Positions 21,811 through 23,418 of a stretch of DNA of 64,000 bases are shown piece by piece; positions within the stretch are counted from its first letter, which is position 1, and every line of letters starts with the position of its first letter. Location of the stretch: contig VGAC01000007.1 in NCBI GenBank assembly GCA_016870865.1, positions 1 to 64,000 on the forward strand, written 5' to 3'. The stretch comes from Actinomycetota bacterium (GTDB lineage Bacteria > Actinomycetota > Acidimicrobiia > Acidimicrobiales > Ilumatobacteraceae). The position numbers and the translations under genes are program-made. A model generated the notes under the pieces. That model had not been told where the DNA came from, did no database searches, and was given only the letters and a program-made list of their open reading frames with translations.

Positions 21811-23418
21811 TCAGGACTTGTTGCGACGTGATTCGGCCCGCCGTTCGGCCTCGAGACGCTCGAGTTCGGGGGGCTCGGTGGTGATGTGGGTCATCGCATC
21901 AGCGATGGCCGTGTGTCCGGCATGATCACGAATCAGACGGTGCATGTCGAGGGCCACCTTGCGGTACGCGGGATGTCCCTGCGGGCTCGAGCGCAACTCG
22001 AGCAGGTGGATCGCCTCGCGGGCGTTGAACTGCATCACGTAGCGAATGCGGTAGGCCATGGACACCGCGTACGGGGCCTGGGCCGGGTACTCGACACTGA
22101 GCGAGTCGTAGAGAGCGGCGCTGCGCTGCATGACTTCGTCGAACAGCCCCCCTTTGCCCGCATCGTCGACGAGTTCGGGCCGCACGTACCCGTGGTTGGG
22201 TGTCAGCGGCTGCCATTCGATCGTCAGCAGGCGATGGCGCTGGAGGTCACGGAAGGCGCCGTAGTCGGAGAGAACGTCGAACCGGTAGTCGACGCGTTCG
22301 AAAGCGCGGCCCGGGCGGTGCCGGCGATTCGAGCGCTCCCCCACGTAGGCCCTGATCAGCGCAACCTTTTCTTCGTGGGCCATGCGAGCGATGCGGCGCA
22401 TGATCTCGGCCTCGCTGCGATTCGTGTGCGAGTAGCAGATGGCCGCGAGCAACTTGTCCTCGCCGTCGGGATCGAAATCCGTCAGGGTCACCGATTCCGT
22501 CGCCGAGTCATCGACATCGTCGGCGTCGAACAACTCACGAACGGCGAGGTCGGTCTCCGTTGCTGTGTCGACGAGGTACTGCGACCACCGGCCGCCACGC
22601 TCGGGCTGGTCGACGCGGCGAAGGAAGCTCGGTATCACCTTGCGAAGTTCCGTGAGCATCAAGTCGGCGTACAGACGCGCCTCGGGGAGGGAGTTCGAGC
22701 GCATGCGCAGGAGCAGACTCTCGAAGGCCTGACCGCTGCCGTAAATGCCGACGTTCGACAAGGCCGCTGCCGGGAGGGCGCCACGCACCGCATCGAGAGC
22801 CTTCGCCCGTGTCGCCTGCCGGTAGACAAAGTCGCTGTCCTTGGGTCCCTGGGGAACCACGCGCCTCACGTGGTCGGTGAGCGACTCGACAAGCGTGCTG
22901 TAGGAGTCGAACATCCTGTCCATGTCACCCACGTAACGCGTCCCGTACTTGCCCGTGAGAACGTCGGGGTCCCGAAAATAGCGGTACCGGCCACCCAGGC
23001 GAACGTCATAGGAGATGTAGCGGGTGCTCTGTTCGAGGTAGCTCATCAGTCGGCCCCACTCGAGGATCTTGGTCAAGATGTTCGATGCCTGCTCGCAGGC
23101 GAGGTGGACGCCACCCAGTTGCGCAACGGAGTCGTCGCCGTACTCGACGAAGATCCGCTCGTAGAGGTCCTCGGCCCGTGACACGCCGACGGTTGCGTCG
23201 AAAGATTGATCACCACGAATGTCGAGTTCACCCACGAACTCATCCAGGAACAAACGGCGCAAACTTTTGGCACTACGGCTGTAGCGAGCAAAGAGTGCAC
23301 CCTTGACGACTTCGGGCAGGTTGACGAGGGCAAAGACCGGCGAATCCAGGTTTGTGAAATACCGTCGCAGGATGTCGGCCTCGGTGGGACTGAACTCCTC
23401 GGGCACGTACACCGTCAC
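21811..23418 (-). CDS. Double-domain ThyX-like protein (FAD-dependent thymidylate synthase family)
   Basis: A 535-residue protein made of two ThyX-like halves; ordinary ThyX has about 220-250 residues per chain. The N-terminal half carries EWGRLMSYLEQSTRY (23018-23059), which keeps the Ser/Arg/Tyr part of the RHR-x-x-S-x-N-x-x-S-x-R-Y signature but has WGR for RHR. The C-terminal half keeps RHR (RHRLLTIEW, 22213-22239) but has lost the SxRY end. Long ThyX-like proteins are usually annotated as thymidylate synthases. Catalysis is not assured. GTG at 23418 is chosen over a TTG three codons earlier. Confidence 0.75.
   Translation of the reverse strand: MTVYVPEEFSPTEADILRRYFTNLDSPVFALVNLPEVVKGALFARYSRSAKSLRRLFLDEFVGELDIRGDQSFDATVGVSRAEDLYERIFVEYGDDSVAQLGGVHLACEQASNILTKILEWGRLMSYLEQSTRYISYDVRLGGRYRYFRDPDVLTGKYGTRYVGDMDRMFDSYSTLVESLTDHVRRVVPQGPKDSDFVYRQATRAKALDAVRGALPAAALSNVGIYGSGQAFESLLLRMRSNSLPEARLYADLMLTELRKVIPSFLRRVDQPERGGRWSQYLVDTATETDLAVRELFDADDVDDSATESVTLTDFDPDGEDKLLAAICYSHTNRSEAEIMRRIARMAHEEKVALIRAYVGERSNRRHRPGRAFERVDYRFDVLSDYGAFRDLQRHRLLTIEWQPLTPNHGYVRPELVDDAGKGGLFDEVMQRSAALYDSLSVEYPAQAPYAVSMAYRIRYVMQFNAREAIHLLELRSSPQGHPAYRKVALDMHRLIRDHAGHTAIADAMTHITTEPPELERLEAERRAESRRNKS

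Follow-up and report, generated by a model that had tools for sequence, protein, structure and literature searches.

A tandem ThyX from Ilumatobacteraceae with active-site residues divided between its two halves: a predicted fused flavin-dependent thymidylate synthase with a composite active site

How might a cell make thymidylate when the only candidate synthase found in its genome has a complete active-site motif in neither of its two domains? This question is raised by a gene at positions 21811 to 23418 of a 64,000-nucleotide stretch of DNA from an Actinomycetota bacterium of the Ilumatobacteraceae (contig VGAC01000007.1, assembly GCA_016870865.1), which is called the window here. A preliminary description of the gene, made from the sequence alone, had taken its product for a ThyX-like protein of two halves with complementary motif losses, and had proposed either that a single active site is reconstituted where the two halves meet or that the protein is a repurposed flavoprotein. 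The frame and its two ThyX stretches were confirmed: the family model Thy1 (PF02511) matched the same frame twice, both times above the curated cut-off (E values in Table 1), and the whole protein at E 1.4e-31. The interface proposal is the one favoured by the results below, in which the division of residues matches the published subunit roles, and we put at roughly 0.86 the probability that this tandem is the cell's de novo flavin-dependent thymidylate synthase (FDTS), a fused pseudo-dimeric enzyme with a composite active site.

The division is visible in two stretches of the window protein, numbered with the GTG at 23418 as M1. The N half reads E120-W121-G122-R123-LMSYL-E129-Q-S131-T-R133-Y134, with WGR for RHR and the Ser/Arg/Tyr end kept, and the C half reads Q393-R394-H395-R396-LLTIE-W402-QPLTPNHG-Y411, with RHR kept and no S.R[YF] within 18 residues of it, as had been described. 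Leduc and colleagues reportedly described, in PNAS in 2004, a ThyX active site assembled from three monomers. For the Mycobacterium tuberculosis enzyme, passages of PMC6514825 assign the contacts with flavin adenine dinucleotide (FAD) and deoxyuridine monophosphate (dUMP) so that subunit A gives RHR 95-97 and Arg199, subunit B gives Ser71 and Arg190, and subunit C gives Arg87, Ser105, Arg107, and Tyr108, the last of these as a lid. In PBCV-1 ThyX, according to a passage of PMC3498832, one monomer gives Gln75 and Arg182 and the other gives Ser88 and Gln89. The expectations as to which residue should lie in which half were fixed before the family alignment was made, with the window protein already in view, and the published chain roles were consulted afterwards.

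These expectations were compared to 130 loci with a two-domain frame, which comprised 80 genome contigs, 20 viral contigs, 19 loci from a genome search, 10 plasmid and phage records, and the window, the three copies of its own gene (L001, L002, and L131) being counted once. The counts are not independent, since 80 of the 130 loci came from a single scan in which just the nearest relatives were retained. Loci were chosen by motif pattern, and no fetched tandem was lost because the 14 left out were single-domain ThyX (eight, L083-L090), ThyA (four, L091-L094), and two phage loci (L105 and L106). In Thermotoga maritima (TM0449) numbering, the residues of role A, R78, H79, R80, and R174, were each present in 130/130 C halves, and those of role C, E86, S88, R90, Y91, and R147, were each present in 130/130 N halves. 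Conversely, the C halves held E86 in 1, S88 in 8, and R90, Y91, and R147 in none of the 130 loci. A complete role-A set was thus confined to C halves, and a complete role-C set to N halves. Positions were scored as E or Q at E86, Y or F at Y91, and S or T at T55. Because each of the 130 C halves was gapped at R90 and Y91 in the alignment, the zero counts there needed the backing of a separate motif search, in which no N half had RHR before ExSxRY and no C half had S.R[YF] after RHR (0/130 each). The canonical RHR...S.RY signature was therefore complete only across the two halves combined.

The complementary loss is accordingly real rather than the chance state of one sequence or a damaged copy, the same split being present in all 130 loci and unchanged on the 128 distinct sequences that remain after the identical pairs L010/L011 and L099/L118 are merged. 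Two residues that the preliminary description had not named also fell as expected for an interface site, 130/130 each: the N half has TM0449 Arg147, which we take to belong with Ser/Arg/Tyr in the active site, and the C half has Arg174. At the T55 position of role B, Ser was present in 130/130 N halves and Ser or Thr in 1/130 C halves, which points to an N half in the role-B place too. By comparison, each of the 12 single-domain ThyX rows carried R78, H79, R80, S88, R90, R147, and R174 together on a single chain; 8 of these rows came from one genus, and L106 was left out. The invariant columns of 36 and of 42 aligned tandem proteins, in which the window protein was 21 to 92% identical to the rest, yielded the same list of residues. 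Role-A and role-C residues are both present in each of the 130 sequences, in the C half and the N half respectively, and we infer that they meet in space. A separate feature of the C-half motif is an extra residue (RHNR) at 15 loci, all Bacillus or Paenibacillus plasmids or viral contigs (L098-L101, L112-L116, L118-L120, L122, L124, and L126).

Modelling of the whole chain with AlphaFold2 from 42 sequences gave a mean predicted local distance difference test (pLDDT) score of 87 and a predicted template modelling score of 0.85, and the N half modelled alone had the same mean pLDDT. In VIA-align comparisons, the C half matched T. maritima ThyX (3g4a_B) with Z 17.1 over 192 aligned residues at a root mean square deviation of 2.4 A, and the N half matched M. 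tuberculosis ThyX (2af6_A) with Z 13.3 over 202 residues at 4.5 A, tied with Corynebacterium glutamicum 3ge9 (Z 13.4); unrelated chains scored about 5. Both halves are thus predicted to have the ThyX fold. A phmmer search of the PDB with the window protein gave no match up to E 10, and a profile of the family matched PDB entries where the single sequence did not.

We then examined which other thymidylate enzymes accompany the tandem. The host assembly (1.95 Mb, 96% complete) has no Thy1 match other than the two halves, so the earlier remark that the window holds no ordinary ThyX extends to the whole assembly. A genuine thyA or thyX elsewhere had been named as one part of the evidence that would count against thymidylate synthesis, and neither was found in this assembly, nor was the dihydrofolate reductase (DHFR) family PF00186. 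A deoxythymidine monophosphate (dTMP) kinase is present, and a dNK match considered as a separate salvage kinase was rejected, as it lies in the same frame as that dTMP kinase. In a sample of 198 genomes of the class, 172 had Thy1 and 15 had ThyA; of the 137 good genomes among them, 125 had Thy1 and the other 12 had ThyA. For two of these 12 (G176 and G189), the lack of Thy1 was deduced because they do not appear in the 172 rows with a match. Family f21 (33 genomes) carries single-domain ThyX instead, in frames of about 220 residues, and the 139 other Thy1-bearing genomes are called tandem-type here, a label given by family with lengths not checked one by one; two of them (G016 and G153) have one Thy1 match and four (G020, G119, G170, and G172) have more than two. 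No thymidine kinase (TK) match was found in 81 of the 139, and neither a TK nor a ThyA match in 78. Three tandem-type genomes had a ThyA match, which was full and beside DHFR in G114, in two pieces in G009, and partial (51 bits) in G063. G170 has two long Thy1 frames, and a third Thy1 match is present in G020 and in G172.

Similar results were obtained in a sample of the phylum, where 87 of 296 genomes carried the tandem, defined as a profile match at E < 1e-120, a few of them partial. ThyA matches occurred in 3 of these 87 genomes (G009, G063, and G316) versus 78 of the 209 others (Fisher p 4e-11, uncorrected for kinship); the match in G316 spans model positions 1-74, and many of the 78 are weak and partial. 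Among the matches listed, judged by number and strength, none of the 87 genomes had a Thy1 match of single-domain strength. In the class sample, DHFR was present in 9 of the 15 ThyA genomes versus 2 of the 183 others (p 2e-10, again uncorrected for kinship). That DHFR goes with ThyA is what would be expected if the tandem, like ThyX, makes no dihydrofolate. Five further genomes of the phylum sample (G206, G234, G245, G267, and G346) each gave one weak Thy1 match, with E values of about 1e-9 to 1e-11, and no match to the tandem profile, and may hold another divergent type of ThyX. One genome (G235, listed contamination 5%) had two long tandem matches on different contigs.

The tandem occurs in Acidimicrobiia, in other Actinomycetota, on a plasmid labelled Parabacteroides, and in large phages, at identities down to about 21%. 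A scan of genome contigs returned 409 stretches encoding relatives; the best 80 of the 409 were mostly titled Actinomycetota, Acidimicrobiia, or Ilumatobacteraceae. Among plasmid and phage records, tandems at 46 to 48% identity were found in Miltoncostaea, in Euzebya, and on the Parabacteroides-labelled plasmid, and tandems at about 22 to 26% on large Bacillus and Paenibacillus plasmids and in large phages. A scan of viral contigs with the single sequence found no relatives, and a profile scan of them found 20 loci. The Parabacteroides record (L096) is a 277-kb P. distasonis "plasmid" whose tandem is about 47% identical to that of the window and has chromosomal-looking neighbours and a DHFR gene; it reflects either transfer or a mislabelled replicon, and the DHFR gene is weak support for a thymidylate role.

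An unrooted tree built from the 58 halves of 29 diverse tandems and from 8 single-domain rows placed all N halves in one group (support 100/99) and all C halves in another (100/99). We considered that the motif columns might drive this clustering and rejected the idea, as both clades remained when the motif regions were removed (99/97 for N halves and 90/91 for C halves, from 102 columns and with long branches). These results fit one old fusion or duplication that would predate the sampled divergence of cellular and phage copies, with the residues divided by that time and with later transfer between phages and cells; a single origin of the tandem is consistent with the data but not proven by them.

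Neighbouring genes suggest a role in nucleotide metabolism at two loci. On the Euzebya plasmid a dCTP deaminase gene lies three genes upstream of the tandem, and in phage Tunturi_5 a dCMP deaminase gene lies directly upstream, with a dUTPase gene nearby. Support from context is limited to these two because ten neighbouring proteins at viral loci gave no nucleotide enzyme, as described below.

Taken together, the above-described results suggest the following arrangement. Each chain would carry two ThyX folds, and two chains would pair into the equivalent of the usual ThyX homotetramer, a pseudo-tetramer. The active site would form where a C half faces an N half, the C half gripping FAD with RHR and holding dUMP and flavin with R394 and R476, and the N half holding and capping dUMP with E129, S131, R133, Y134, and R212; S97, for the FAD phosphates, would also come from an N half. 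The mirror-image site, made from the RHR position of an N half and the SxRY position of a C half, would lack the needed residues and should be dead. One complete and one dead site are expected for each N:C pair because the losses match the subunit roles of known structures. A dimer would thus have two working sites rather than four and bind roughly one FAD for each chain, neither half would be active alone, and the normal ThyX reaction would run at the two complete sites. Catalysis, the geometry of N:C pairing, and the stoichiometry of the dimer are what we infer from this match. More tentatively, and we think this doubtful, complementary decay may have been fixed before bacterial and large-phage copies split and have made the N:C interface obligatory, the dead pockets may have become regulatory or sense folate or nucleotides, and the cellular branch, with Asp at position 53, may handle folate or another carbon donor differently from known ThyX. 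Some ligand-binding residues do persist in the predicted dead pockets, since most N halves retain those at R80 and R174.

Several findings weigh against a composite synthase of this kind. Loss is incomplete in the N half, contrary to what the preliminary description implied: R78 was present in 15, H79 in 2, R80 (R123 in the window protein) in 112, and R174 in 108 of 130 N halves. Role-B R165 (Arg190 in M. tuberculosis) was less clearly divided, being kept in 112 C halves and in 23/130 N halves. Contrary to prediction, Arg was present at position 70 (Arg87 in M. tuberculosis, role C) in just 19/130 N halves, and the H53 position was Asp in 104 and His in 24 of 130 N halves (103 and 23 among the 128 distinct sequences). 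A PDB entry whose title names an H53D variant of the T. maritima enzyme together with FAD and dUMP indicates that binding of these ligands tolerates the change in that enzyme. At this position, for folate stacking, cellular tandems have Asp, and most tandems of phages and viral contigs retain His. The window protein scored 40.5 bits against the NCBIfam thyX equivalog TIGR02170, below the cut-off of 87.9. The host genome also has a divergent TK-family gene, so salvage is possible there. Two tandem-type genomes have a second enzyme, a full ThyA in G114 and, in G119, a separate 289-residue Thy1 frame (E 8.3e-28; G119:C8:5203-5817) beside one of tandem length, and in both a replacement may be under way. 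The ThyA and DHFR genes of G114 form an adjacent pair (G114:C8:48396-49669). At five viral loci, of eight with open reading frames listed, the 10 neighbouring proteins of the tandem matched no nucleotide-metabolism family by Pfam. Finally, the PDB title of C. glutamicum ThyX describes that enzyme as one not needed to make thymidylate, but that species has ThyA, as a control search found.

Much of this would suit a flavoprotein repurposed for another flavin- or nucleotide-dependent reaction, with dTMP supplied by salvage or by an unrecognised enzyme: the score below the equivalog cut-off, the Asp at position 53 in most cellular copies, the host's TK-family gene, and the precedent, by PDB title, of a dispensable ThyX in C. 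glutamicum. We nonetheless consider it improbable, as the pooled halves keep an invariant catalytic set even where identity falls to about 21%, no ThyA or TK-family match was found in 78 of the 139 tandem-type genomes of the class, the 12 good class genomes that lack Thy1 all have ThyA, and enzymes that supply dUMP are among some of the neighbours. The arginines retained at R80 and R174 in most N halves could instead mean that all four pockets are active with altered residues and that the motif differences are divergence with no division of labour. This we hold to be less probable still: R90, Y91, and R147, invariant in N halves, were in 0/130 C halves, an intact RHR was in 0/130 N halves versus all C halves (as RHNR in 15), and the losses track the subunit roles of known structures. 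That the two-domain frame is an assembly artefact or a pseudogene fusion would accord with the origin of most relatives in metagenome bins, but this reading is already refuted by intact frames in 130 loci, among them one-contig genomes (G002, G003, G014, and G027) and plasmid and phage records. A composite, flavin-dependent synthase therefore best accounts for the tandem.

Features of the gene are collected in Table 1. A TTG three codons upstream of the GTG at 23418 is also a possible start; the GTG is favoured because several relatives start at the M(T/S)VY position. Neighbours of the tandem in the window encode an M20 peptidase, a DEAD/DSHCT helicase, an enoyl-CoA hydratase, and a signal peptidase, and are uninformative on its function, as was a scan for its promoter and terminator.

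Table 1. Coordinates of the tandem ThyX gene and its parts (window positions; residue equivalents are those of TM0449)
Feature	Position	Strand	Remarks
Tandem ThyX gene	21811..23418	(-)	535 residues from GTG at 23418
N-terminal ThyX domain (~M1-272)	22603..23418	(-)	Thy1 E 5.9e-13; model pLDDT 87; predicted donor of the Ser/Arg/Tyr side
Y93-G94-D95-D96-S97	23128..23142	(-)	S97 = T55 (flavin phosphate side); D95 = H53
W121-G122-R123, replacing RHR	23050..23058	(-)	Aligned WG-R in 88/130 and RG-R in 15/130 N halves
E129-x-S131-x-R133-Y134 (E86, S88, R90, Y91)	23017..23034	(-)	130/130 N halves
V211-R212-G-A-L-P; R212 = R147	22771..22788	(-)	R in 130/130 N halves and 0/130 C halves
Inter-domain segment (~273-304)	22507..22602	(-)	Between modelled domains
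C-terminal ThyX domain (~305-516)	21871..22506	(-)	Thy1 E 6.6e-17; predicted to supply RHR and the second dUMP arginine
R394-H395-R396 (R78, H79, R80)	22231..22239	(-)	130/130 C halves; RHNR insertion in 15
W402-Q-P-L-T-P-N-H-G-Y411, at the expected ExSxRY place	22186..22215	(-)	S.R[YF] within 18 residues after RHR in 0/130 C halves
L473-E-L-R476-S; R476 = R174	21988..22002	(-)	R in 130/130 C halves and 108/130 N halves

In the samples searched, no thymidylate synthase other than the tandem was found in most genomes of Acidimicrobiia or in 84 of the 296 genomes of Actinomycetota; the tandem occurs in large phages too, yet falls below the standard thyX equivalog cut-off. If the composite site is correct, it would be a natural case of duplicated active sites that have decayed in complementary ways on either side of an oligomer interface, and a ThyX with unequal sites would be useful for asking which residues of a flavoenzyme act together.

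Several known systems can be set beside it. The open-licence PMC papers searched contain no description of complementary half-sites and one earlier mention of a tandem ThyX, without characterisation: passages of Valas and Bourne 2009 (PMC3224940) refer to an uncharacterised domain-duplicated ThyX in Chloroflexi. This is likely the same family, judged by its description, and those passages hold neither the motif split nor the idea of a composite site, unlike the tandem described here. The duplication has thus been noticed before, and the composite-site reading and the distribution appear to be new. The two-domain ThyX proteins of large phages and related replicons (Tunturi_5; Vibrio BONAISHI and Yong MS32; Bacillus and Paenibacillus plasmids of about 200 kb; IMG/VR L107-L126) have the same domain order, and the members fetched have the same residue split as the window protein, from which they differ in being mostly 21 to 33% identical (L107, 52%), in having mostly His at position 53, and in the RHNR form at 15 loci. 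The family phrog_36506 (E 7.6e-6) and Microcystis phage LMM01 A0A7D4 (a fold match) are probable relatives. The atypical C. glutamicum ThyX (3fnn and 3ge9) shares the fold but is a single domain and, per the PDB titles, dispensable beside ThyA. Compared to the canonical homotetrameric ThyX/FDTS (PF02511; T. maritima TM0449 and M. tuberculosis), the window protein is alike in the predicted fold of each half, in its active-site residues, in sites drawn from several subunits, as the literature gives them, and in a genome where ThyA and DHFR were not found. It differs in having two domains per chain, one side of the site per half, a score under the TIGR02170 cut-off, and a predicted two sites instead of four.
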